NCBI GenBank assembly: GCA_021234155.1
Contig: JAJEKV010000018.1
Coordinates: forward strand, 16,745,415-16,809,414
Source of the DNA: Isoetes taiwanensis
Lineage: Eukaryota > Streptophyta > Lycopodiopsida > Isoetales > Isoetaceae
DNA length: 64,000 bases
Direction: 5' to 3'
In this document: positions 9,186 to 64,000 of the stretch, piece after piece
How the letters are laid out: each line of letters begins with the position of its first letter
Numbering within the stretch: the stretch's first letter is position 1
Notes under the pieces: model-generated
The model's database searches: none
Told to the model about the DNA's origin: nothing
Seen by the model: the letters and a program-made list of their open reading frames with translations, nothing else
Position numbers and translations under genes: made by a program

Positions 9186-10394
9186 CTATGGATATGGAGG
9201 GCTGCCGGAGTAAAGGGGAGGATGGGAATAAATTGGGCGATAAGGAGGGGATGGTCTTGGGTAGCAGGATCGGGCAGAAGATAAAAATGCTTTGCACTGC
9301 AGCGGAGATCTCTGTAGATTTTCGTATGGGAGACAATTTCCTCTGTTGTCGTAGATCTTGCCTTGGTATGGCAGGGCCCGGCATGTTGGGCTCTCTGATG
9401 TGAAGAAATTGTTGGACACTGTAAAATTTTGGAGCTTGGGCAGCTTGCAAATCCCTGCCAGGAGGTCCCCAAAGAAGAAATTGTCTGCCAGAACTAAATA
9501 TTCTAATTTTACCAGGCATTGCAGACTCTGCGGCAGCTCCCCCTGTAGCTCGTTGAAGCTTACATCAAATACATTTAAACTCTGAAGCTTTCCCAGCTGA
9601 TCCGGCAAACAGCCTTCAAATCTGTTGCCGATGAACAAAATCTCGTTTAGCGTATTCCCCATATTGCCAATGCTCGACGGAATCCGACCCCCAAAGTTAT
9701 TGTTTGCAAAATTTGCCACCGAAATGGGCGAATTGCCCAAATTATCGGGCAAGCAGCCCGTAAATTTGTTGTTATTCACAAAAATCGCATCAAAGTTTTT
9801 GTCGAACAATGCGGAAGGGAGCTCGCCTTCGAAAGAATTAAATCGAAGATCCAAGTATTTGAGAGTAGGAAGATTCAAAACGACGAAAGGAAAGGGACCG
9901 GAAAGCCGATTATTGCTAACATCAAGCTCGAAAAGCTGTGTCAGGTACTGAAAAGTTTCAGGAATTGTACCACAGAAATAGTTTGTGTTGATATGAAACA
10001 GGACCAAATGAGAAAGCCAGCCCAATTCCGGAACCAATTCTCCAGATAAATAGCCATGGTTCAGATCTATTCCGGTGACAGACTGATCGCAGGGGGATGC
10101 ATTTGGGGGAGAACAGAAAACCCCTTTGTAATTGCACACATCCGGCCCAACCCAGGTAGCAGTAATGCCCTGCGGATCCCCTGTAATTGCCATTTTCCAA
10201 GCTTGAAGAGCAGCATAGGCAGCGGCCAGATTTGGGTTTGGGAAGGCATTTGGATTCGGAAAAGCTTGAAGCAGATTACGACCGGAAGCGGAATGGGCAT
10301 CCGAATCCGAATCGCCATAGCTCCCAGCTGCAAGCAGAGCAAATGCGACGCAGAGCAGTGCCAACATTTCTGCGCGCACAAAAGGATGGGCCAA
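9186..10394 (-). CDS. Leucine-rich repeat extensin-like (LRX/PEX family) protein with a very short extensin tail
   Basis: Intronless 402-residue secreted cell-wall protein. Residues 1-27 form a hydrophobic signal peptide (LALLCVAFALLAAG core). Next comes the LRX-type N-terminal block with AYAALQAWKMAI and WVGPDVCNYKGVFC. About ten leucine-rich repeats of the plant extracellular type follow (LxxLDVSNNxLSGPFP, LxYLDLRFNSFEGELP), then a cysteine-bearing LRR end cap. Only about 25 residues rich in proline, serine and tyrosine follow (PRPSPPYRP to SGSPPYP), where classical LRX proteins have long Ser-Pro repeats. LRX proteins act in the wall, where their LRR part binds RALF peptides. This one is closer in length to LRX-like proteins lacking an extensin domain. 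The start is the first ATG placing the signal peptide at the N-terminus. A TATA-like site lies about 155 bp upstream. The frame is undamaged. Confidence 0.9.
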   Translation of the reverse strand: MAHPFVRAEMLALLCVAFALLAAGSYGDSDSDAHSASGRNLLQAFPNPNAFPNPNLAAAYAALQAWKMAITGDPQGITATWVGPDVCNYKGVFCSPPNASPCDQSVTGIDLNHGYLSGELVPELGWLSHLVLFHINTNYFCGTIPETFQYLTQLFELDVSNNRLSGPFPFVVLNLPTLKYLDLRFNSFEGELPSALFDKNFDAIFVNNNKFTGCLPDNLGNSPISVANFANNNFGGRIPSSIGNMGNTLNEILFIGNRFEGCLPDQLGKLQSLNVFDVSFNELQGELPQSLQCLVKLEYLVLADNFFFGDLLAGICKLPKLQNFTVSNNFFTSESPTCRALPYQGKIYDNRGNCLPYENLQRSPLQCKAFLSSARSCYPRPSPPYRPIYSHPPLYSGSPPYP

Positions 10395-10546
10395 TTCTGT
10401 TGAAAAGCAAAGAATTTATGTATGCAAAAGTTTTGCAAAATAAAATAATGGCGGCCATTTTGTAGGCCTGCTGACAATTCGTTTGTTTTGATTTGCTAAA
10501 CCCCTTTCCCTTTCCCACTGCCGTTGGAACGGTTGGTTAAGTTAGG

Positions 10547-23290: not shown

Positions 23291-23360
23291 TGATATTTCT
23301 TTATTTCTTTATTTGATATTCCTTATACAAAAAGAAGTTTAATTATGGAGTTATTATGGA

Positions 23361-24915
23361 TATCCTTGGGATGATGGGGAAAGGCTTGAAGGGGCACACG
23401 GCTGCGACATAATATGTCTGGTGGAGACATGGGAACACAACATAAAGAGGCTGCCAGAGGAGGAGGGGTACCAGCTATTCACATGCTGGAAGGATAAAAA
23501 TTTTAAAATAGATAGAGGGAGCGCAGGTCTAGCCTGCTATGTCAAAGAAAATGTAGCAAACAATACATGTATTTTATATTCGGATGTCAATAAGAGATAC
23601 ATGATACTAAGTATTCAATTACAGAACAAAAAAGATTTAATTTTGATTATAGCATATTACCCACCGAGTAGTGATAAGCTAGAACTATTAGAGCTAGGGG
23701 AAACTTTGACGAAGTGGAAGGAGCAGGGACCAATGATACTAATAGGGGATCTAAATGCCAGGACATGCCAGGAGCAAGCGCAATGCACAAGCATAGATGA
23801 AACAAATGGACAATGGACCCACATAGCAAGATCAAAAGATTGGAATAGACGGACAGAGGACAGGGCAGAAGTCAATGCCAAAGGAGAACTACTGCTCGAG
23901 GTATGCACAGCCACAGGGGTTATCATAGCCAATGGGGTACAGAAGTGGCCAGGATCAGGGAACTTCACGTGTCAGAACACCCGTGGGAGCAGTATAGTGG
24001 ATTACGTGATACTGAATGCGCATGCAGCAGGCTTAGTGTCGGAACTTGTGCTCCTAGAGTGGCCAATCGGAAAAAGAGAGAGTCACAGACCCATACAGTT
24101 GACACTTGCAATAGACGAGCAGCCCAGAAATCAGGGACAACAGGGAAGTGAGAACGATAAGGGAAAGCTGAGAATACAGTTCCAGAATAAACACTCAGAC
24201 ATCTTTGTACAATCCATCAAAGAAGAAATGGGAAAATGGAACTGGGAGGAACATAGGGCAGACGAAAATGGAGATATGCTCAATGATATAACAGTGAAGG
24301 TGGCATTAGAAGTATTTGGGAAAAAAGGAGGAAAAAGGGAAATAATGCCTTTAAGGCCTCAATCTGGTACGACGATGAATGCAGGGAGCAGAAAAGAAAA
24401 GTCAGAGCGCTTAAAGGTAAAGAAACATATCAAGCTAAAAGAGTAGTATATTTGAGGATGCTGAGGGCAAAGAGAAACAAAAACCTGATGCAACATCAAT
24501 GGGGACTAGTCAAATTACTCAAGAAACAACCTAGACAATTCTGGAAATGATTTAAAGGGAAGGGGCAGGGGAATAAGAAAAGTGAGAACACACAAGGCGA
24601 AAGCTGGATGGGAGAGATACCTTGATAAACTGTACAAGACTGGGGCTTCTCCGGCGCCAATACCGGAATTGCAAAGGATGGATCAACCATGTTTCAGCAT
24701 ACATGAAGTGATGATAGCATTAAACAGAATGGGCAACAACAAAGCACCAGACCTATATGGATTAACTGTGGAGTTACTAAAATGCGCAGATGTGGCGATA
24801 GGGAAGCAGGTGACAGATGTATTCAACGGCATAATACACACGGGGCTTCCAGACAGATGGGCATACAACAGGGTAATACCCCTACACAAAGGGGGGAGCA
24901 GGCAGGAACCTGGTA
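23361..24915 (+). mobile_element. LINE fragment: AP-endonuclease and start of reverse transcriptase
   Basis: The segment begins in an open frame with CDIICLVETW, the glutamate motif of APE-type LINE endonucleases. It continues through PMILIGDLNART (the GDxNA motif), a STRGSSIVDYVI-like block and SHRPIQL (the D/HxP end). The frame stops at 24446. After stops, the RT entry region follows (24582-24915) with NRMGNNKAPDLYGLTVELLK and RVIPLHKGGSRQEPGN. The element breaks off where Y/FADD motifs would come and abuts a minus-strand coiled-coil gene relic. It may belong to the same family as copies A-C, but no overlapping region allows a comparison of coding ends. Confidence 0.85.
23421..24446 (+). 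pseudogene. LINE AP-type endonuclease domain
   Basis: A 341-codon open frame covers nearly the whole exonuclease-endonuclease-phosphatase domain that nicks target DNA during LINE insertion. Catalytic landmarks are visible: ETW, GDLNAR, SxxDYV and SHRP. The frame is open further upstream to about 23361, so the first ATG here is probably internal. It ends in a stop before the polymerase. Confidence 0.85.
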
Positions 24916-27375: not shown

Positions 27376-28165
27376 ATTACCATGTAAGAATTAGGGAGGA
27401 TGACATCTATAAGTCCACTTTTCGGACACGTTATGGGCACTATGAATTCACTGTTATGCCATTTGGCTAACTAATGCTCCTGGTACATTCATGAGGTTGA
27501 TGAATGATGTCTTCCACAAGTATCTTGATGGCTTTGTTATCATTTTCTTCGATGATATTCTCATATATAGCAAAACCTTAGAGGATAATGAGCATCATCT
27601 TCGGTTGGCCCTACAGAAATTGAGACGCCATCAACTTTATGCTAAGTTCTTCAAGTGTAGGTTTGCAACCACCAAGGTCGATTACTTAGGACACATTGTT
27701 TCTGCGGAGAGAATAGCCACAGATCCAGCCAAAATTGAAGCAGGAAAAGATTGGCCGATCCCAACGAACATGTCAGAGGTCCGCAGTTTTCTAGGATTGG
27801 CAGGATATTACCGTAAGTTTGTTACGGACTTTGTTAAGCTTGCTGCACCTCTTATGGACCTTACAAAATATGAGAAGGTTAGGGATTGGATGGGACACTG
27901 GAAGGAGAATGTCCAGGCCAGATTTCAATCATTGAAGGATGCTTTGGCAACCGCTCCAGTTCTTACCTTGTCGAATCCTCACAAGGATAAGTGGGTTGCT
28001 ATGCTACAGGTGGAGTATTAATGCAAGAGGATAGGGTAATCGCAAATGATTCTAGAAAGATGAATGACGCAAAACAGCGATACCCCACGCATGACCAGGA
28101 ATTACTTGCCGTCGTGCGTGCCTTGCGTATTTGGAGACATTATTTGCGTGGGAGACGATTCCAGC
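27373..28165 (+). pseudogene. Ty3/gypsy pol fragment: second half of RT and start of RNase H
   Basis: In order the segment has [25 protein letters not shown], the catalytic [14 protein letters not shown] (F-x-DD box), [21 protein letters not shown] and RNase H blocks (DSRKMNDAKQRYPTHDQELL, RALRIWRHYL). A one-base loss after VMPFG and another near 28010 shift the frame, and an early stop is at 27468. The segment stops in RNase H near RGRRFQ, with no integrase or LTR. It is a dead fragment completing the RT half at 25850-26181. Confidence 0.92.
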
Positions 28166-46395: not shown

Positions 46396-49302
46396 TTGAA
46401 TCCGGGCGCAATGAAACGGGGACGCAAGAAGCTACCTGGAGATAATTTTTTTAAGAGCTTAGTAGGTCGGAAGATGCTGGTACCAGCCCTTGAATTTGGA
46501 GAAGAGTGGGCAACAGAAAAGTTCACAGATTTTTGTGGAGATGTGACTCTTGTGGGCAAGATCATCTCCTATAACTGTAGGAAAAGGTTGTTTGAAACAT
46601 TTTTCGAAGCTGATGAGGATACAATGTGGTTAAATTGGGGTAAGGTAGAGAGATTTTTAGTGGCAGACCAAGAACCAGGCCATGCAAAACCCGAAATGCC
46701 ATCAATTCAAGAAGAAGTAGGCCATGCAACCCCGTCAAAAATTGTTCCAACTGTCGAAGTGGCTTGCCCTGCTACAGAATCTGAAGAAGAAGGAGAAGAG
46801 GGCCCGGATGATGTGCCTATTGGTAGTCTCTTCTGTGCAAAAGGTAAGAACATTGAATGGCCTTCCCTTTCTGATTCCTTTAATCAATTTCAGAAAAGAA
46901 TAACTAGCCCAGAGAGTATTCATCACCACAAATTCCTATATGCTGAAGAGAGGCAGTTTTGCCCTTCCAAACATACCCTTCTTGCAGCCACTCATTCTGC
47001 TCAACAAGTGCCTGCAATAGTTTCTGAAGCCCAAATGCAGGTAGTAGTGGAAGAAACCTGCTCGAAGAAAGGCCAAATTTCTGTAGTAGTTAAAGAAACT
47101 TGCTTGGAGAAGGCTTCTGCAACAGAATTGAGTGGAGAGCCATGCATGGTGCAACCTATTACTGTTCTAGTGCCATCTGAGTTGCAGTGAATCTCCCAAG
47201 CTAATGCAGCCAAATGAGCCCGAGTTTTCATTTGAAGCATGTGAAGAAGACCAAGATATTGACGACATTGAAGATCAGATTGAGGATGCAGATTTTAATC
47301 CAAGGGGTGAACATGTTAGTGATGAAGAGCAAGCTGATATTCCTCGTAAACGAGGCAGACCAAAAAAGAGGAAAGCTAAGCCATTGAAAGAAGGCAATTC
47401 TAGAGGTCGTGGCAGGCCAAAGAAACTCTCGTTTGAAGAACCACAACCTGCCACTAGAAGAACCTCAACTTCAAGCAGTAATGCAGATGAGGATGCAAGC
47501 AATGTGGTATCTACCTCACCTGCAAAAGAGGATTCTCCAGAGGGGGAATGCATTTCAAGTGATGAGGAGGATGAATTGCATGCCATTGATGATGTGCAGC
47601 TACAAAGAGAGGGTCCTAGCCTTCGTGAAGATGTTGATGAAGACGACCTCCCTGGTGCCGAGCCTGCTGTTGTAACATGGACCTTAGGTGAGAGTTGTTT
47701 GCCCCCAAATTTGTTGCACAAATTCCCTGATTACCTTCTTGAGAGAGGTCCAGCTATAAGAACAAAGAGATTGTCCCCATTTCAGCTTTTTACTTCCTAC
47801 TTGTCTTTTCCTATGATGGCTCAGATCTGCCATGAGAGTAACAGGTATGCAGACGAGGTTAGAGAGAAGGCAAGACGAAAATTCAAGAGCACTCAAAGCT
47901 GGTCTGCTGTAGATGTAAGTACAATGTTCAAGTTTCTTGGATTGATAGTTGCCATGGCACTCAATCCATACAATTGCATAGAATCTTATTGGAAATCAGG
48001 TGAGAGAGGTGCCGTGAATTGGCCTAACTTTGGTAAGTTCATGTCCCTCAAGAGATATCAGCAGATAAAAAGGTTCTTCCACTTGAGGGACAATAGCTTG
48101 AGGCCACTTGATAAGAACACAAGAGAGTACAAGGTCTATCAGGTTCAAAATGTTGAGAGGGAATGGAACAAGAAGAATCTAGAATTGTACACACCTGCAA
48201 GGAGGTGACTGTTGATGAAAGAATTATCCCCTCACGGAATGCCATGAATCCCTTGCGCATATACAATCCCAAAAAGCCTCATAAATTTGGGATTCAGCTT
48301 TAGACCCTTTGTGATTCGGCTTCGGGGTATTGCATGCAGTTTGAAGTGTACGATAAGTTGAAACGAGAAGAAGGTTTGGGATTCCATGCTGTTTCTGCCC
48401 TGGTAAAAAAGCTCTCTCCTGGGCATCATGTCTTCTTTGACCGCTATTTCACAAGTGTGAAACTGCTTCAATGGCTCTCAAGAAAGAAGCAAGGTGGTAC
48501 AGGAACCATAAATCCCAATAAGACAAAGATGTTTCCAATCAAAATGCTGAAATTTGATGGAAAGAAGAAGGAAGTGCCAAAAGGCAGCCACAAGTTTGCA
48601 TATAGTTCACAAGCTGGCCTTGTTGTAAGTGCTTGGCAGGATAAGGAGTCTATCCTCTTTGCTTCCAATGTCCATGGCATTGAGATGTCATCAGTCGTGC
48701 GTTTGGTGGAGAGGGGCAACCGTGAAGAAGTGGCTGCCCCAGAGATGGCTGTTGCATATAATTTGCATAAAGCTGGTTGTGATGTACACAACCAAATGTG
48801 TTTGGCATCCAACTATAGTTTGGAGAAGGAGATGGTCTCGTGGAAATGGTGGCATTCTCTCTTTTGGGGCATGCTTGATTCAGTTCTAACCAATGCTTAT
48901 ATTATCTTCAAGCATTGGAACCCGGCTATAACTCACTATGATTTTCTGACCTTGTTGCAGCAGCAATTGATTTGTAATGATTTGGAAGGTGCTAACATAA
49001 CAAGAGAAAACTTGTTGCATGCTGGTTCAAGGCATGCTACATATTATAAATCCGAGGGGCAGCATAGAACTTGTGTAGTATGTGCTGCCCACAGGATCAT
49101 TGAAAAGGAGCAAGGTGTAATACATCAAACTGCCCGAGCAAGAAAGACCAAGTTTTATTGTCCGGTTTGTGAAGTTTATGTCTGCCCTGGAAGATGTGAT
49201 GCATTGTATCATTCTGACATGTGGACGGGATTGCTAGAAGATGCCAAGAAGGCGGATACTGCAATGAAGAAGGCAGATAGAGCAAGTAGAAATACAGAGT
49301 AA
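46396..49302 (+). pseudogene. piggyBac-type transposase gene with a Tudor/PWWP-like N-terminus, broken
   Basis: Three consecutive frames form one protein. Part 1 (46396-47190) has a compact chromatin-reader-like domain (FFKSLVGRKMLVPALEFGEE to LNWGKVERFL). Part 2 (47204-48208) has acidic tracts, two AT-hooks (KRGRPKK, RGRGRPKK) and the start of the piggyBac DDE domain (FLGLIVAMALN, FMSLKRYQQIKRFFHLRDNS). Part 3 (48334-49302) has the rest of the DDE domain and a Cys-rich end (CPVCEVYVCPGRC). Catalytic Asp codons sit in VTVDE (48214), FFDRYFTS (48439) and AGCDVHNQ (48781). The usual fourth Asp is Asn here. Breaks: a frameshift near 47180, a one-base loss near 48200 and a TAG at about 48301 where Trp is expected. 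A possible 3' intron starts at 49301. No TTAA-flanked ends were found. Confidence 0.85.
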
Positions 49303-53502: not shown

Positions 53503-53549
53503 AAGTACCATGAAATTTCTATGATGGTATGAGTTCTTATTCTCATAAC

Positions 53550-53953
53550 TTTAACCTATAACAAAAACCATTACATTGCACGCCTTAAAATTAAATTCCC
53601 CCTTAAACCCCCTTTTTGTTTGGGTGATATTCACGCGGGGGGTGACTCCGGGCAACGAGAGCTGTTGGATAGGCATATTCACCCCTTATTCCTTAATCTA
53701 TACCGTACACAAAGTTCGTTTGTGGGGGATGGATGTACAGAATTTGTTATACTGTGTAACAAGATTTGCAAGATACTATAAGATTTCAGGCAATATACTA
53801 TATGGTGTTGATTTTGTACATGCAAAACATAATTATAAGGGCTCTCTCTGCCCTACGTCACCTCCCGTGTGAATATGCACCCAAACAAAAGGGGGTTTAA
53901 GGGGGAATTTAATTTTAAGGCGTGCAATGTAATGGTTTTTGTTATAGGTTAAA
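53550..53953. mobile_element. 404-bp inverted-repeat element with near-perfect 118-bp arms
   Basis: The left arm, starting TTAACCTATAACAAAAACCA, and the right arm are inverted copies, identical for the first 65 or more bp and then about 85 percent alike to 53670 and 53838. The centre of about 170 bp has no coding. High arm identity indicates a young insertion or arm homogenisation. Target duplications are not obvious. It lies between the retroposon and the HUH-type gene. Confidence 0.85.
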
Positions 53954-54198
53954 ATTTTTTTTGCCCCTTCGGGTCCAAAAACAAACAACGTTACATCACA
54001 CTTGGATGAGTTGATATTATATTGTGTAATTAATAATATGTCGGATATAAAACATGTAGCAATATGTAGCAAAATAACAAATAAAAACAAATACTAATAT
54101 GAAGCATAAGTAACTATAATATTATAGCATAATGTAATTTAATTACATACGCTTTAGTCATTGAAGATAGTAAAAGTAGTATATCAATTTTGAAGCAT

Positions 54199-56069
54199 TC
54201 AATATGGATAGCGGCTTAAGATGCGATACACATCTTCGTTGATTTGCCTATCAAACAACCTGCAGAGGGCAGTTAGCCTATTTACTTGCGCACGTAATTG
54301 CCTTCGCTGATCTATGTCCAAACGAATGTGCGTGTCAAGAATGAAGTTCTCAATTGAGTTCAGTGCGTTATTGATTTGTTGCATAGACGAGCGCATGTCA
54401 TTGATGTATCCAACTAACCACAGTGACATAACGTCAATAGGGTCCTCGCCATGTGGAGGTGGTGGTTGTGCTGATGGCAGAGAAACTAACTGAACTTGAA
54501 CTTCAACTGTTGGGCTTTCTGGTACTATGATAATTTTGGACTCCACATTATTGCTTACTTCAGGAATGACGAGGATGTCACGTGGAGGTGATTCATTGGG
54601 GGCTTCTATAACCTGCATGTTAACAAAACAAATTGATGAGATTGAGCAAATGAGAACATAATGAAATAATATGTTATTATACTAGATATTAAACTAGATG
54701 GCAATTACTATAGTATTCTATTCAATACCCGTAAGTGTCACTCTGCTGCAAAAGATGAGTTCCAGTTGGTGAGCATAATTTCCTTATCACCCAAATCTCC
54801 AACTACAATTGTGTTTTGGAGTCTGTCTGCAATATGTGCTTCAATGATTTCGTCTGGGTCTTCGTTAACTGGCTGGTGCTCGTCAAAGTACCTTGGGGGA
54901 TTAGCAAATGGATTACTGCTACGGGCTCTTGACAGGCGTGCTGGATCATTATTCGGTGGCCCATAAAGAACTAACGACACTTTCTCACGGGTTGCTTGGA
55001 ATGGGTTCATCATTAGATCATATGCAGCTTCAACTTTTCTTTGGTCTACGTTTTGGCCATTAGTAGGTATAGCCCATTGTGTGCTGAGATAGAACTTTCC
55101 TGTCTTGATCCTCTCTGTGATTGTGAATGTCAGGGGTGGCTTACGACGATTGGCCATGCAATAATTCGCAAAGTGACGGGCTTTGAGGAGTAAGTTTTTA
55201 GGATCTAGACAAACCTCATCTTTGATTTCTCTTGCTCCATACATCGCATATCTTTCTTTCCCTCTCATCAATTCTGCTGATGAGATATTATGCATGCGTA
55301 CACTGAAATGAGGCTTTCCAAAGTCCTTCATGCAATAACCTAACATACCTTCAAAGCAATGCAGCTTTGTATCCTTTAGTGTCATGCACATTATTTTAGC
55401 TCCAGCTGGCTTTGTGGTGTTCCATCTCATAGTTACTTTGAGTAATGTTGCAGCACCACGGACTCCTACTGTTTTGAGTTTGGCTGTGGATTGGAAGTGC
55501 AAATGATCTAGATTTGATCCACGCTCTGTTGCAACTAATCCTGCATGACAATGCTCAATAAAGGACTCTAAGATATTATCTATCAATTTTGGATCGACAT
55601 CTGTGCCCCCAATTCCTATTGTTATGGATACATCTCCACCAACTGGCCCTTTAGTTTTTGCGTTGTTGCTTGTTCTTCCCCTGCTTCTTTGTTCCCTTTT
55701 TTTTTTTTTTTCCCTTTGGTCATTTTCAAAATAATCTGTGTCACTTGGGCTAGACGTATGAATGCTAATCAAATCTGTATCATCATCTTCAATAAGGGGT
55801 TGCTTTCCTTTTCTTGTTTTTCTTGTCTGCCTGACAGGACTGCAATCTCTAATAGGGCTAGATGGTCCAGGATCTTGACGTGGCGGAGACTTATTTAGAT
55901 GTAATGTGTTGCAAAATACCTCAACACGTTCGTTGATTTGCGCCTCTTCAGCTTCGACGACATTTTCTTGTGCAGGGTGATTTATCTCATACGTGATGCC
56001 TTCTGCCTGCATGACTCCCGTTCGTGATGTTGAGCCTGGGCCTCGTCTGTTTCGTGCCATTCGTCTCAT
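54199..56069 (-). pseudogene. HUH-endonuclease (Rep/Replitron-like) protein gene, two exons, stop in exon 1
   Basis: Exon 1 (56069 to about 54729) encodes 443 residues before a TGA. Residues 1-140 are disordered and charged with a basic NLS-like KKKKREQRSRGR. Residues 145-280 hold Rep-type landmarks: an acidic-Gly run-in, the HUH motif in DHLHFQS (189-191) and GYCMKDFGKPHF (245-248), fitting the catalytic Tyr/Lys motif YxxK. In such proteins the two His bind the metal and the Tyr attacks DNA. No helicase (Walker) motif follows, unlike viral Rep. A GT-AG intron (54728 to 54613) leads in phase to a 136-residue helical tail (54612-54199). The TGA sits three codons before the splice donor, so the frame is either newly broken or the tail is UTR. 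Family call by motif only; a captured viral Rep is the alternative. Confidence 0.6.
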
Positions 56070-56228
56070 TGTAATATCTAGATGTAATGTCTAGCATTAA
56101 AAAAACAACACAATTGTTAATAACTAGTAATGGTAGTAATAATATGAGTAACACAAGCTTCTAATACTAGTAAACCATAAAACCTAATATAGTACATGTT
56201 ATAATGTTAGATATTGCTAGATATTGTA

Positions 56229-56402
56229 GCATTTGATTTTTGCATAGAAACTAAAACAATGGCCATAATGGTAGATATTGAAAGAAAGGGTGAGATTTTA
56301 AATTTTGAAGCTGAGCATTTGATTTTTGTATAGAAACTAAAACAATGGCCATAATGGTAGATATTGAAAGGAAGGGTGAGATGTTAAATTTTGAAGCTTA
56401 AA
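56229..56402. repeat. 86-bp tandem duplication upstream of the HUH-type gene
   Basis: The block GCATTTGATTTTTGYATAG through TTTTGAAGCT is present twice in a row with few differences, 160-330 bp upstream of the HUH-type ATG on the minus strand. Confidence 0.85.
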
Positions 56403-56689
56403 GAATGGGCAGTACATATAAAGGAAGGGCGACATTTAAGATTTTAAAGGGAAGCAAAGGAAGCAAAGATATTAGTTAAGAAAGCAAAGGTCAAGTCAGC
56501 CGAAATTCGAGACAGTCGGAATTAGGGCACGGTTAGGGTTTGTGGAATCGATGATGGCAGCTGTTTACTTGGAGACATGCATAGCCGATGGAATAGAGCG
56601 ATCTCAGGGCCGATTCTAACTGTGGTGTTGCTAAATATTAGAAAAAACACAAGATAGAGATTTCGGATGGTTTACAGCAAAAAAGTTCA

Positions 56690-56995
56690 GCAGATCTGGC
56701 TATGGCGGCCCATTTGTGTGAGGCAGATTCTGGAAAAAAACAATGTGAAGTCATAGCTTCAGTTTCGGATTCAGGGGCGAATGGTTTCGGATTCAGTTTT
56801 GGATTCATGGGTTTCAAGATCTGGCTATGGAGGCCAATTTGTGTCAGGCAGATTCTTTTCTTAACAAAGTGGAGTCATAGATCCAGTTTCGGCCTGAAGG
56901 GCCAATGGTTTTCAGAGGTAAAGTTGAGGAAGATAAACTTAGGGATAAATTGCAATATGTGGCTATGGAGGCCAATTTTTGACATGCATATTCTG
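56690..56995. repeat. Imperfect tandem repeat, about 125-140 bp period
   Basis: Three units begin with TGGCTATGGMGGCC (56698, 56823, 56962), followed by TTTGTGTNAGGCAGATTCT-like sequence and TTTCGG blocks. No coding assigned. Confidence 0.7.
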
Positions 56996-57414
56996 CTCCA
57001 ACTGCAACTCCAATTTTGCATGCTAGATAGTTGCATGCAGGCTTCGAGATTTGGAAAGCAAGAGCAAATAAAACAAGAAGGAAGAAGTATATCTGCCAAT
57101 ATCTAGCATCTAAACATCTAAAACATCTAAGAATCAAAACATCTAAGATCATGAAATTCAAAACATCTAAGATCATGAAAAAAAGGAAACTAACGCTGTA
57201 AAACAGATTCAAAAACGGTTTTTTTGGGTTGCCCCTAGGGGGCAAGCCCTCGTTGATGTGGGTTTATGGTATATTCTTGGTTTATGCCAGTACAGGCCCG
57301 AAGTATGCCAATGACTGCTCCAAACTTGCGATAGGGTGTAAACTTGCGGTGGCCGCTGTTCTGCGCAGCCACTTTGGAAACTGGCTAACCGGTTTTTTCT
57401 TGCTATTTCTTCTG

Positions 57415-57826
57415 GAGCTCCAGCGATGGCAACAGATGTGTCATCAAAACGATTAGCACGGGTCAAATACATAAAACTTTTTACCATCCGGCCGGTTTTA
57501 CTCCAGATTTTTTAAATGCAATTTTCGTAGATTCGATAGCTCTGGAACCGAAACAGAGGGGGTCAGATTTCGATTGCTCTGATCCCTCCCCTGTTTTATC
57601 TGCATGTGCACCAAGCTATGGAGCTCCAGCGATGGCAATAGATCTAGCATCAAAACGATTAGCACGGGCAAAATGCATAAAGCTTCTTACCATCCGGCCG
57701 GTTTTACTCCAGATTTTTTAAATGCAGTTTTCGTAGATTCCATGGATCTGGAACCAAAACAGAGGAGGTCGGATTTCGATTGCTCTGATCCCTCCTTGTT
57801 TTATCTGCATGTGCACCAAGCTATGG
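57415..57826. repeat. 206-bp tandem duplication
   Basis: Two units start with GAGCTCCAGCGATGGCAA (57415) and GAGCTCCAGCGATGGCAA (57621) and run through CATCCGGCCGGTTTTACTCC to TGCACCAAGCTATGGAG. Identity is about 90 percent. On the minus strand each has a splice-donor-like ATGGTAAGAAG. The role is unknown; it may be leader or promoter sequence of a lost gene. Confidence 0.85.
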
Positions 57827-57829
57827 AGT

Positions 57830-58059
57830 TTGTCTACAAGTTTTTGGATCTTGTTGTTAGTAAAACAACCATTCCGGTGGTGTCCATCTTCAGCTTACTC
57901 CATCTCAAGCATACTCCATCGTTTCTACAAGGTTGGTTGCCATTGATCTATCCATTTATTGGCCAACTCTTTATTTCTTTTATCTAACTCGCTATGCATC
58001 GTTGCAATTGTGCAAACTAGGTGTGCCCACAGATATGCCAAGCTGATATTACAGGAGTG
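57830..58059. other. Short stretch without a recognisable gene
   Basis: Unassigned sequence between the 206-bp duplication and the minus-strand L1-like relic. Confidence 0.3.
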
Positions 58060-58620
58060 TCAACTTCTTCGTGGTACTTCGTGGTGCAATGCATAAGCTC
58101 TTACATAGATCCAAGTGATGCTTTTGTTTAGATCTCCTATGTCCGCTTCAGAGCTATTTAGATATTCGTATGCTGGGTCTGTGTCTGCATCCCAAATCCA
58201 TCTAAACTCAATTACTTTTTCCTTTAGGTCTGTAGTATTTCCAGTAATATTTAGGTCTGTAATATTTCCAGTAATATTTATGCTCCAAGTAGCAGACTGT
58301 TGTTGGCTATCTGGGTTGTGCTTTAGCATAATTCAAAGGACCCTTTGCCAGATAGCTTTGGCCATTTCACAATTCCAGAAACTGTGGAATTGGGCCAATG
58401 GCTTTTAATCTTCACGCTTGAAGTTTTCCTTTTACCTTCCTTGCCTTCCTACTTTTCACTTTCAAAGCAGTCTCTTGCTGTTGAAGTCTAACCTGGTACC
58501 AAATTTTATAAAATTGCTCTGATGAAGGCTCTACAACACATGAAACGAATTTCAGCCATGGCAAATGTCTATTGTTCTCCTTATATTCTACCTTTTTATG
58601 CAAGAAAACGACTTTATATC
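58060..58620 (-). mobile_element. Probable L1-like LINE C-terminal relic, minus strand
   Basis: The minus strand encodes FWNCEMAKAIWQRVL after a short histidine-bearing lead, which resembles the H-x-F-x-x-C-x-x-A-x-x-x-W block of the zinc-binding region of plant L1 ORF2. A following frame (58060-58329) contains a 27-bp tandem duplication read as NITGN-IT/TT-DL. Stops interrupt the reading. The evidence is modest. Confidence 0.4.
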
Positions 58621-60070
58621 ATATTTAACGTAGATGGCAAGGAAAGAACCAACGCCGTCAAAGCTTCCACAAGGAGCGGACTATAGAGAACTAGGAGAGG
58701 ACCAAAAAAAGCCAGAAGAGCAGAGATTGATGAAATTTGCTTAATCTAGTCAAGTCCGCTTTTTATAGGAGGCTCTTAGGTTTACAGGTTTATAACCAGC
58801 TTTATTATGAGCCCATAAGGTTGTGCTGTTGCCCAGAAAGGCTAGTTGCTCTTGTGTCTTGGCAAGCTAGGCAATCAGGACAGGTTGTGCTTTCTTGAGT
58901 AACAGAAGTTGCCCATACTATTTCTTCTCTATGTGTTGGGACTGCCTTTGCATCAGTATAAAGCTTGATCTCTTGATCAATACGCATGCATAACATGTTG
59001 TCATGCAATTCTGCATGTTATTTTGTGAGGAAAATAAATCTCAATCTGCCTTATTTCCAATCCTAAGCAGAGGGCAAAGCACTGTGACCTGAAAATAGGT
59101 GCTAATATGGCTTTAACCAGTGATCAAACCTGCAGCTGCATGGGGACGTCCAGTTGTCTGGTCAGTTTGAGGTTTTGGTTGTATGGTTGTGGATGCCTGA
59201 GGATTTGGTGACAGGCCGAGCGTACGAGTCTCAGTCCAGTGGTGGTTTGCAGATCTTTTGGTGATAGGCATGACTCACCATATCAAACCTGCAGCTGCAC
59301 CTTTTCATCCACTTATAATAACACCAAGTAGGGATTGCCATCCTTGTCCTTTTTATTGTACAAATTGCTAAATCCTTGTTGCATAGATTAATTGTGCAAC
59401 TTGATGTTCCAATATTAAGAAGCTTATTCCCAGTCTATAGAGAGTCTATAGAGAGCAGAGACTTTTCTCGTGTCTACATACCAAGTGTGTTTTTCTGAAG
59501 GCCCTCAAGCTAAGCAAATCGTCTTTACTGAATATAAAGCCAGGCATGTTGCTACGGGTTATACCCAACAAGAGGGCTTTGATTTCAGAAGTTTTTGTTC
59601 ATGTTGCTACATGTATACTCGTTAAACTGTTATAACTCTTGCTGATATGGAGGCTGCAACCTATTTACATAGATTTCGAGTTTGTTTTTCTGAATTGTGC
59701 CTCCTTTGAGGCTAAAGTTAAGGACATGTCAATGTTGACTTCTAACATGGTGACATGGCACACAAAATGGAATAGATGACCAATCAAATCACATGGCATG
59801 ACGAACTGTCAAGTCACTATGGATGTCAACTTCAGTTTAGTTTTCTCAGTTGTGATTCCTTGCTGTTTAGCTTGAGAGAATCACGGGAATCCCACCATCT
59901 CACCAACTGTTATCATCAATTGGTCGTGGCATGCATGATGATCTATGCATTGACAACTTTGATGGCATGCACAAAAGTTATGAAGATAGTGTAATTGATC
60001 TCGTGCAGTCAGGTAGTCCGTACATTATGAAGTCTTTGTGATCTTAATTTGTCACATGTATAATTTTCTT
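58621..60070. other. Stretch without a supported gene
   Basis: Scattered short frames on both strands, no recognisable domain. A duplicated word (AGAGTCTATAGAGAG) occurs near 59440. Confidence 0.4.
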
Positions 60071-60076
60071 TCCCAG

Positions 60077-60838
60077 GGGATGCTAACAAGAACCAATTGC
60101 ATTGCCGGATGAAGATTTCTATAAATATAGATAATGAAAAAGAGCTTATATTAGTGGTGCAATAGAAAACTCTTGGGGAAATTGTTAAATCTCGCACTGG
60201 CATTGGGCGTTGGCAGTGGCATTGGGCGTTGGCAGCAGTGTATTTTATTTTCGGGTAGGTTCAGTATTCAAGTTGGAATGTAAAGGGCAATTCTGATTCA
60301 ATTTGGTATTTCTAAGTTTGCAGGCAAGGTATTACAGGAGAAGAAAAGATTGGTTGGCTACTTTGTCTACCCAGAAAGCATATTAGATTTCTCTATTTTA
60401 AAGAGTGCCTCAATGCTTGCTACAAGTGTTGGAACTGCTCAATTGGAGAACTCTGGTACTTAACTACAAAATTTTTGCACTTGTGTTTTAATCTGCAGAG
60501 TGCTGGTAGAACGTGTCTTAGCTTAAAGGTGCATATTGTTGTTTCATGCTACATTTTATTCAAGTTGTTTTACTGCTTGACAAGGTGACCTTACACAAAA
60601 ACCGGTGGCTAGGAAACTGAAGTTGGTGAAATCAAGCGAAGGGCACATAACAGGAACAGTTATTCTTCCTGTGCTCGTAACTGATATAGTTTCTGATGTG
60701 AGGAGGAGGTGGAGGTGAGTAATAGTGAGCGGGGGCACATGCGGACGCACATGAATCTTGCCAGGGCGCTTCTGCTAAGGGAGTTGATTATGATAGACCA
60801 TTTGGCGAGGAGGCATAATGCCGCAATGAATATGAATT
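60077..60838 (+). other. Exon-like segments of an unrecognised gene, plus strand
   Basis: Three open segments with splice-like borders follow each other. 60077-60240 (after TTTCCCAG) encodes GDANKNQLHCRMKISINID but has an early stop. 60324-60455 (after TTTGCAG, ending before GTACTT) encodes KKRLVGYFVYPESILDFSIL. 60583-60838 encodes LKLVKSSEGHITGTVILPVL and, in another frame, ARALLLRELIMIDHLARRHN to a stop. It could be the decayed 3' part of a host gene. I recognise no family. Confidence 0.3.
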
Positions 60839-60839
60839 A

Positions 60840-61794
60840 GGTATGTTTTGCTTTCATATTTTCATGCTTGCTTTGTTTTCTGTTTCTTAATTCACTTTCA
60901 TTGGATGATTCATTAAGGGAACCAGTATGGCAAAATGAAATGAAATGAAAAAAAAAAGTGTTGTTGAAAATACTGTTTGGATTGAGGCAGGAAAAAAAAG
61001 GTCTGACTGTGTATCAGCGAAAATTTTAGTGGTCCCGGCGGGCCATTTGGCCACAAATTACAGGTTTGGGCAAAATGCGACGGCCGGCTTCAGTAGGATG
61101 CCTTACCTACGGACTACCTGCAGATTCGCCATTTCGTGGCACTTTATTGCGTATTACGACATTAGAATGGCCAATTAGATGTTTGCTAATTGGAGTGGTA
61201 TTGACTTTGGGGCCAATTTAGTCCCAAGTGAGAACTAGATATACTTATGGAATGGCCATTTAGGCCACTTGGCCAAAATCCTGGAATGCCTTAAATTCGC
61301 CAAATCTTAACTTATTAAGAGGCCCCCTCATAAATTCGTCACTTATGGGGGGCTAACATTATTAGAAATTTTTATTTCTAAATATATCTACCAACTAAGA
61401 ATAATCTCGCTCTTTTGGAAAATCAAATATCGAGGCACTTTTCAATCCTCTTTACGAAGACTCCGGCATCCGATTTCTGATTCTCCCTACCAGCAATATG
61501 TGCATTATTGAAATACATGGAGTATGAATTCAAATTCATACAGGGGAGCGACTTCTTTATGTTCGAGCAACTAGCTCTATATTTCATAAAAATCTAGCTT
61601 AAAATCGCCATTTGAGCTACACATTATTAGATATTTGGTTCAAAAATCGCCAATTGGGTTGCAGCCACATGAGAAAAAAATAGGAAAAATGGCCAGTTCA
61701 GGCTACACTTTTGGGGTCGTATTTTACAAGGAATGGCCAATTCATTATACTTATACAAAATTATAGGTCCCTTAAAATTTTCCCTGCTGTGTAT
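60840..61794. other. Stretch rich in TGGCCA/GGCCA words, no supported gene
   Basis: Words such as GAATGGCCA, TTGGCCA and GGCCATTT recur on both strands between 61030 and 61740, as in a decayed repeat. I could not define ends. Confidence 0.35.
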
Positions 61795-61895
61795 TTGGTA
61801 TTGAGGCAATGAAAAAAAAGTTTGGATGCTTTCTTGGTATTGAGGCAATGGAGAAAAACGTAATTGTTTTGTTGGTATTGAAGCAATGTAAAAAA
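61795..61895. repeat. Three-unit tandem repeat TTGGTATTGARGCAATG
   Basis: Units at 61796, 61840 and 61883 are each followed by an A-rich segment. Period about 44 bp. An A run follows at 61913-61931. Confidence 0.75.
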
Positions 61896-61931
61896 AAGTC
61901 TCAGAAATGTGGAAAAAAAAAAAAAAAAAAA

Positions 61932-63583
61932 GCCAGCCTGAACTAGAATCCTAGACCAGACATCTGCCTCAGTCAATCCCTTGGCAGTATTATCACTCTA
62001 CTACTAGTCTGAGCATTTCTAGTATAGTATCAGTTTACTTCTCACATTCAGAATTAGTCCATGTATCATTGAATCATCTAGATGTTCCATAATATGGTAA
62101 AAATATTTTTAACTGAATGGCCTCTGTCCTAGGGGTCAGATGACAATAATTTTCAAAGTATATTCATGTAAAAAATCATTATGTATCTTTTAACACTGTG
62201 TATACAGCACCATAGAGAATTACAGTCTAAGACCATATGTTTTAAAGGGGCATAATATTTTATATCAAGAGCCAATTTAATATTCTGATCAATCTAATTC
62301 CGCCAAATATCTTTAGGCAGTTAGACCATTACAAGGTGTTGTTGTTCTTAGACTTTAGAACCAGCATAGTATTTTACACACTATGAAACTATATGAAATA
62401 CACATGTGATTTTGGCCATGGCCCAAATGTTCAGTACCAAATGGATCCTGATATCCTACTATTGTTATTTTATAGTATCACTTTAAAGGTTACGTATCCC
62501 CTTTAGTGATCTGCTTTTAGAATTTATCTGTTTAACAGATTAACAACCTTTAACAGGCTTGTAAGCCCTACTCACTGTTCTAGCAGCCTAACATCACTCA
62601 TAGTATGATTGTCCCTGATCGAAATACTGCTGTTTTTGACTGAACAAATCCAACATAAATGTAAATTCGTGACAAAAACCTTTATGGCTTGTATTCCCAA
62701 AACAGTATGTTTCTTTCCATAAGTGTAAATAAACTACAAAACTTATCCATAGGTCATGTTTCCTATAAACCTCCAAACTTTATAAACCTTTAACATAAAC
62801 CAAAAATAGGTTTTACTCTGTATCTATCAGAATATTTGTAAGTAAGTTATGCATGACTGTAAACTCAAAAATAGAAGAACCCTGTTCGTGTGCTCAGTAG
62901 CTTAATCCATGTGTTGTATATGAACTCGTTGTATACCAGAACCTGATCCATCCTTGCATCCATACCTTACTTGTAAAGCAAAAGAGACAATGAGAAGAAA
63001 ACCCCGTACCTGCAGCCAAACAATACCCTGTTAGCATAAAAAATGGTATCAGGGCAAGGGCCAAAAGGTACATAGGGGTTTTCAGCTCTTCGCTGATTAC
63101 CCATTGTTCCTTTTGCCCTGTTAGTAAGTATAGATTACAAGATTGTCCTGAAATCAGATATAGCTTTTATGTAATTCAACTGAACCACTTGCATGCCTTA
63201 AGATATATTAATCACTGATACATGGTAAAACAGGTCTAAAAACATATTCTACTTCACTAGAATAGATCCCTGTTTGTGTAGATGCACTCATATTATCTTA
63301 GTTTTGCCCTGTTACATATTCTCAGCATTAAAGTTACCTCTGGACCAACCATATGCGAGGAGAATCTTAATTTGTTGATATATGGGACTGTATCATGCCT
63401 AAGGGTATAGATGAGCAACTGCTCCTAATGTGCAGGATGATTTCCGGCCTTAGGGTAATCTGCTGTACCTATTATAAAGATCAGAGTTAAACCTATTATA
63501 GGCAGCATAATGTTTGTACTACCAATGTATCAAATGTTTATCTAAACTTTTATATGCTGCCCTGTTTCGTAAATATTATCTTA
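61932..63583. other. AT-rich stretch without a supported gene
   Basis: If the small RG-rich frame at the right edge is a gene, this is its downstream side and could hold introns. The word TTTTGCCCTGTTA recurs (near 63110 and 63303). No protein is recognisable. Confidence 0.4.
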
Positions 63584-63958
63584 CTAAATCAGGAGCAGAC
63601 TGATACTTTTGTATCCAAGCCGCCATAACAACCAATATAACATATAAATGTAAATCAAAACCTGATCGAAGTCTGGATCCCCTTCCAGCTCCTGAGTTTC
63701 CTGGATTTGGTGTATCTCTTGATAATCATCTTGGCGTCTTTTGCCGAAATTTTTGGGACCTCTTTGATAGCTTCTATCATCCCTTTGAAATCCGCCTCTT
63801 CTTTGGCCGTAGCCTCCTCTAAAACCTCTAGATTCCATTCTGTGATCACTCCTATCAGACCTAGCAATGTAGGCTTCAAGCTCGCGCTTCAAGTCGGCTG
63901 TGTTAAGATCCTCATAATCTGATCCTGATGTATAGTTATCATCAGAGAAGTAGCCCAT
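63584..63958 (-). CDS. RG-rich, acidic-start protein, first exon or partial; function unknown
   Basis: From the ATG at 63958 the frame has an acidic, Tyr/Ser-rich start (GYFSDDNYTSGSDYEDLN). A short helix follows (ADLKRELEAYIARSDRSD), then an Arg/Gly-rich segment (FRGGYGQRRGGFQRDDRSYQ) and a Gln/Glu-rich stretch. Near DPDFDQ a splice-donor-like CAG/GTTTTG occurs (63661), after which the frame turns hydrophobic and ends, as expected for run-on into an intron. RG-rich segments of this sort bind RNA in nuclear proteins and also occur in retrotransposon gag proteins; I cannot tell which applies. Codon use looks protein-like but the product is short. Confidence 0.4.
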   Translation of the reverse strand: MGYFSDDNYTSGSDYEDLNTADLKRELEAYIARSDRSDHRMESRGFRGGYGQRRGGFQRDDRSYQRGPKNFGKRRQDDYQEIHQIQETQELEGDPDFDQVLIYIYMLYWLLWRLGYKSISLLLI

Positions 63959-64000
63959 TATGTGGGCGCTTGCTTCTAAGAGAAAATCGCCTGCCGGAAT

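Follow-up and report, generated by a model that had tools for sequence, protein, structure and literature searches.

The window analysed here, a stretch of 64,000 nucleotides from the genome of the lycophyte Isoetes taiwanensis, carries on its minus strand two open reading frames followed by a long hairpin (Table 1). ORF1 runs uninterrupted from ATG to TGA over 443 codons, and the shorter ORF2 lies behind it in a separate frame. Elsewhere in the window are found pieces of a transposase (47171-49302, plus strand; PF13843 DDE_Tnp_1_7, E 1.2e-15 and 1.7e-24), which we take to be piggyBac-like, a leucine-rich repeat extensin-like (LRX-like) gene (9186-10415, minus strand), with a best relative in Diphasiastrum complanatum (59%) and a weak tree placement, as well as what is left of a retroelement endonuclease and a reverse transcriptase (23343-24443 and 27446-28018, both plus strand).

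Table 1. Parts of the Replitron-type element and of its interruption, in window positions
Feature	Position	Strand	Basis
ORF1, Replitron HUH endonuclease, 443 aa	54738..56069	-	PF21859 match, open copies, pN/pS
DHLHFQS, HUH metal motif, residues 188-194	55488..55508	-	translation; inside PF21859 match
Tyr245 of GYCMK, predicted nicking tyrosine	55335..55337	-	translation; Adiantum comparison
ORF2, 139 aa	54199..54618	-	separate frame; no family above threshold
Left arm of the 3' hairpin, presumed template	53877..53956	-	
Small stem-loop TTTTTGGACCCGAAGGGGCAAAAA adjoining the hairpin	53958..53981	-	sequence, DNA fold
GAATAT, presumed nick site and 3' terminus, repeating the GAATAT of the 5' end in direct orientation	53627..53632	-	tail-to-head junctions
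Putative fold-back extension, left arm inverted beyond GAATAT	53547..53626	-	78 of 79 aligned bases equal to the window's own left arm
5' non-coding stretch of the element, as far as the window copy is uninterrupted	56070..57224	-	alignment to other copies
Presumed nested insertion of ~15.4 kb splitting the element	57225..64000, past window edge	.	L041/L042 comparison
5'-terminal motif AATATCTAGCATTATAACA, inverted, in the 3' UTR, 3 mismatches	54061..54079	+	
5'-terminal motif repeated between ORF1 and ORF2, 2 mismatches	54672..54690	-	
5'-terminal motif repeated ahead of ORF1, 1 mismatch	56197..56215	-	

The sequence-only reading of this locus had proposed a HUH nuclease gene of the Replitron type, with an HLH metal motif followed about 55 residues on by YCMK and without a helicase motif, and had suggested a profile search of the product, a structure prediction and a search of the genome for further copies. 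The profile search bore out the assignment, as ORF1 residues 149-274 match PF21859 (Replitron_HUH) in Pfam-A with E 1.3e-18 and 68 bits (cut-off 28.5), and the same domain scores 70.0-76.5 bits in three other genomic copies. The motif spacing is confirmed at 54 residues, counted on the translation from the second His of DHLHFQS to Tyr245, and the absence of a helicase motif agrees with the lack of any helicase family for ORF1 or ORF2 in Pfam at E up to 10. The search for copies revealed a multicopy element with shared ends, as described below.

A single relative was found at E up to 0.01 among ~5.8 billion proteins. This protein, from the fern Adiantum capillus-veneris, is 251 aa long, shows 37% identity to ORF1 over 31% of the query and matches both PF21859 and PF21860 (the Replitron C-terminal domain). 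It is identical to ORF1 at G241-C246 and at K248, and a protein search with the alignment of these two sequences returned no relative beyond the same Adiantum protein. PF21860 is not among the Pfam matches of the window protein; in all three other copies it scores below threshold (14.2-17 bits against a cut-off of 27) over residues 304-360. The AF2 model obtained from two sequences (pLDDT 33, pTM 0.19) is uninformative on the proximity of the two His and the Tyr.

The two-ORF stretch is multicopy, with 50 matching pieces from 40 scored candidates out of 614, many of them full length and 87-96% identical. Across 20 genomic copies, each fetched with 4 kb per side, the pooled pN/pS of ORF1 is 0.35 in frame, compared with 0.80 and 0.84 once the frame is shifted (related pairs pooled, values given without a p-value), which shows constraint at the protein level. 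By the same pooled measure (likewise without a p-value) ORF2 appears constrained as well, albeit more weakly (0.49 in frame versus 0.63 and 0.85 shifted). Four of the 20 copies (the window copy, L015, L025 and L027) keep ORF1 open for 435 aa or more, and the TGA closing it is kept in all 20 aligned copies. ORF2, for which no family passes a cut-off, is either a C-terminal part or a separate protein. The intron of the sequence-only reading would join the two frames; inspection by eye spoke neither for nor against such splicing. Genome-wide, all 150 scored candidates for PF21859 (from 2165 first-look candidates) exceed the cut-off, and none of 14 control genomes has a match.

The 5' end of the element is sharp. 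The string (C/G)TAGCATTATAACAGG directly following AATAT occurs in 2233 exact copies, 963 of them after G and 1270 after another base (control 0 both times). A 160-bp 5' query gave 2447 first-look candidates, and all 40 scored matches, which are the best scorers and thus biased to full length, begin at query base 1 or 2. The same start, AATAT(C/G)TAGCATTATAACAGGGG or a close variant, is present in 12 of the 20 loci, counting L012, in which a second, nested element carries it, and both L019 and L023, which have a common flank; it is damaged in L026, and none precedes the ORF in L011, L014, L018, L021, L022 and L024. Summed from the offsets, the element is ~3.8 kb long in L013 and L017.

The 5' end of the window copy itself would lie outside the window, at C996:16818449. 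There, L041 carries the 5'-terminal 398 bp of an element, including its 5' end, and abuts the window part at an A-run that is uninterrupted in L042, suggesting a nested insertion whose length of ~15.4 kb is arithmetic from the coordinates. The ends of this presumed insertion (57225-64000 in the window) carry GGGTTGCCC-like stretches. The 5'-terminal motif AATATCTAGCATTATAACA has five matches in the window at up to 3 mismatches, all of them inside the element (0.02 expected), and these repeats could be candidate binding sites for the HUH protein.

The opposite end is marked by the hairpin, whose region in the window folds as DNA at -129.4 kcal/mol (z -20.6 versus 100 shuffles). It stands directly behind the ORFs in 13 of the 20 loci, 2 kb away in L011 and inverted in L024, and is missing behind the ORFs in the other five (L016, L018, L026, L027 and L028). 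A 22-mer from its right side has 1946 exact copies in the genome (control 0). Three deletion derivatives (N42, N44 and N45) have kept the exact 5' end and the hairpin with most of the ORFs gone, while N43 has only the first 220 bp in common and the hairpin in the opposite sense. As the hairpin is kept both behind the ORFs and in the deletion derivatives, we conclude from these comparisons that it constitutes the 3' end of the element and its derivatives. A MITE as the source of the hairpin was dropped after comparison with the derivatives, and terminal inverted repeats were rejected as the element ends. A second type of hairpin, with the stem-loop GGGCCCGAAGGGCCC and not GCCCCGAAGGGGC, occurs in L016, L039 and N45 and in part in L015 and L025.

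The exact terminus within the hairpin is indicated by junctions between elements. At 54 places (control 0) the hairpin sequence GTGTGAATAT is joined straight to a 5' end, (C/G)TAGCATTATAACA; junctions in L016, L090, L092, L093 and L094 were read individually. Because the GAATAT of the hairpin runs directly into the 5' end in these junctions, it is found at both termini, and it looks like a 6-bp terminal direct repeat common to the two ends. No inverted-copy relation was found between the 5' terminus and the GAATAT 3' terminus. The junctions may represent either tail-to-head products of replication or insertions into the GAATAT of older copies, and under either reading GAATAT would be the site used by the nuclease.

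The latter alternative, namely that each junction arose when a new element targeted the GAATAT of an older copy, has only slightly less than an even chance in our estimation. Other 5' ends are also preceded by AATAT, with a G before it in the 963 of 2233 cases given above, and in L091 the sequence GTGTGAATATGCAC appears a second time after the fold-back extension, on the far side of a copy belonging to the C1 array, which might reflect template switching or what is left of the target. Against this alternative stands contig C1 itself, where 2961 bp separate two successive 5' ends and the 22-mer lies in between, an arrangement like that of a tandem repeat.

The target sequence was compared at 23 local 5' ends, where the base before ATAT is A in 21 cases and T in two, and the next one is G in 14, C in five, A in three and T in one; the search string itself demanded ATAT, and several of these ends are tail-to-head junctions. 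At the nested element of L012, the host to the left of the insert reads ...CTACTATAT, and on the right it resumes with 8 bp lost relative to the uninterrupted relatives. No target-site duplication was detected among the 10 copies with both ends (the L012 row having a wrong 5' end), the flank match being 23 versus 24.0 (sd 3.4) after shuffling, with 1336 of 2000 shuffles as high. Joining at the right end looks imprecise, judging from the flanks.

Most hairpins do not stop at GAATAT. Among 40 sampled ends (hand-picked, not random, from the first 100 of the 1946 places), four end before GAATAT, three at it, five within 5-29 nt past it and 28 at least 30 nt past it, with the 7 nt of L052 being a chance match and the 22 nt of L080 probably a tail-to-head junction. 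With 28 hairpins running on and three stopping there, GAATAT is not the common physical end. Beyond GAATAT the left arm recurs in inverted form, over a length that differs between hairpins.

The right arm was compared with the left arm of the same hairpin in the 21 hairpins that have at least 40 nt beyond GAATAT, which are those of 48 readings passing this filter (among the 27 left out are short ends and the same hairpins read on the opposite strand); 11 of the 21 come from the best matches to a 470-bp query, a bias to long right arms. Over locally aligned stretches, a measure that favours matches, the right arm agrees with its own left arm at 97.9% of positions. None of 5000 shuffles, which average 1080 (sd 87) and peak at 1433, reaches the summed own-arm score of 1746. 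No other left arm scores higher in 16 of the 21 hairpins, ties being counted as best rank; in the remaining five another copy's left arm is better, the own arm ranking 14 in L024-3724, 11 in L022, 6 in L037, 3 in L036 and 2 in L038. The window hairpin, which reads GCGTG, is outside this set and was compared separately with its own left arm (Table 1).

A control stretch inside GAATAT gives an own score of 948 versus 929 for shuffles (sd 9.9), a value reached by 206 of 5000, and is thus not flat. On the inner side of GAATAT, 15-19 of the 21 hairpins have a mismatch at positions -21 to -23 and at -29, and mismatches recur at -37 and -38, where the stem ends; outside it there are 47 mismatches in 1434 cells, with no position above four of 21. 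The identity of own left and right arms is 0.968, compared with 0.954 for the nearest other left arm and 0.865 for left arms of different copies among themselves. A right arm that matches its own left arm from the presumed cut site onwards is as expected from self-primed copying that starts at a GAATAT-3'OH.

An alternative explanation is that the full hairpin is the ancestral 3' end, inherited and kept paired by selection, that shorter copies are truncated, and that the arms co-evolved within subfamilies. Subfamilies with matching arm variants do exist, the majority of the sampled hairpins do extend well past GAATAT, and the nearest other left arm is close to the own one. On the other hand, changes confined to a single one of the hairpins examined are shared by its two arms (L021 has a duplication, L024 a deletion and L035 a substitution), pairing improves at GAATAT with fixed mismatches persisting inside it, and the right ends are ragged, the mirror image extending through the neighbouring small stem-loop in L030, L033 and L034. 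On this evidence we consider inheritance of the whole hairpin improbable.

Lower still we would place the possibility that the hairpin is an unrelated, abundant palindromic repeat that was inserted into an ancestral Replitron and has been carried along since. The abundance of the 22-mer would fit such an origin, as would the non-family sequence found beside several of 12 fetched copies, but the hairpin stands on the 3' side in the three deletion derivatives, its GAATAT is joined to the Replitron 5' end at 54 places, and its right end is ragged. An integrated CRESS-virus Rep, suggested by the HUH plus Y1 motif, can be set aside with near certainty, since no helicase is listed (superfamily 3 would be expected), the best family is Replitron_HUH, and the element is multicopy with a defined 5' end.

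Our preferred reading, which we hold with some confidence, is that of one copy in a large Replitron family whose members are cut after (G)AATAT and have a 3' end extended by fold-back. The sequences themselves show the Replitron domain, the sharp 5' end, the GAATAT at both termini in the junctions and right arms that for the most part agree with their own left arm; beyond this we infer the following course. The HUH protein would cut one strand after (G)AATAT at both ends of the element, by means of Tyr245, and the 5'-bound strand would be joined to an AATAT in a similar target. Within the ~330-nt hairpin, the outer stem contains the 3' end, ...CCCGTGTGAATAT. The free GAATAT-3'OH could fold back and pair with the ATATTC of the left arm. 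A host polymerase would then extend it along the left arm, in many cases only as far as the vicinity of a short A/T tract and the small stem-loop, and the new right end would be joined loosely to host DNA by host repair.

Self-primed synthesis from a terminal palindrome, combined with a HUH nuclease, is known from the rolling-hairpin replication of parvoviruses. This is a likeness of mechanism rather than a family relation, the Isoetes element having a hairpin at one end only and no helicase that could be found. On balance we favour the view that each transposition includes a parvovirus-like step of this kind, in which the left arm serves as template for a new right arm, and that arm divergence dates the insertions. 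If so, each insertion would have a built-in clock, in the way that LTR divergence serves for retrotransposons, and the cut site would be testable with a short oligonucleotide. The genome, with its at least 150 HUH domains over the cut-off and thousands of ends, provides a natural record of the reaction, holding the presumed cut site, the tail-to-head products and a right arm seemingly rewritten from the left arm.

By its domain, the lack of a recognisable helicase, the terminal repeat and the size, the element is, on sequence criteria, a Replitron. Replitrons have a length of 0.9-4 kb and no terminal inverted repeats, and target-site duplications of 2-8 bp can occur. Their founding paper is that of Craig (2023, PNAS). 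Replitrons have short direct terminal repeats of 5-11 bp and their hosts already include lycophytes (PMC10741241), so the gene alone is ordinary. The sequence-only reading had considered a Replitron in a land plant notable; its presence holds, whereas the surprise falls away with those lycophyte hosts. As portrayed in the same passages, Replitrons share with the Isoetes element the HUH domain, the want of a detected helicase, the short terminal direct repeat, a length of ~3.8 kb and a lycophyte host, the Isoetes element differing in its long 3' hairpin, its ragged right ends and the lack of a visible target-site duplication. Such a 3' end may be new for Replitrons, the comparison being with passages of PMC10741241 and with Pfam PF21859/PF21860. 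No fold-back end in Replitrons was found in the literature titles and abstract openings covered (Craig 2023 lying outside this coverage), and the literature passages at hand contain no description of how Replitrons move.

Outside the Replitrons, the nearest tested analogue known would be the Helitron Helraiser, for which the published account describes a 3' hairpin acting as terminator and head-to-tail circles (PMC4778049). As described there, Helitrons are likewise HUH transposons with a 3' hairpin and head-to-tail junctions. In contrast to the Isoetes element, whose arms are ~80-120 bp long with the right one apparently recopied, Helraiser has a RepHel core with a helicase and a 19-bp palindrome. 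A Helitron was rejected as the identity of the Isoetes element, Pfam listing no helicase family for either ORF.

Some of the elements sharing the 5' end differ in their interior. The same 5' end is followed by sequence that differs further in at L043 together with L049, at L092 and at L093, and the genome may contain several Replitron families with common termini.
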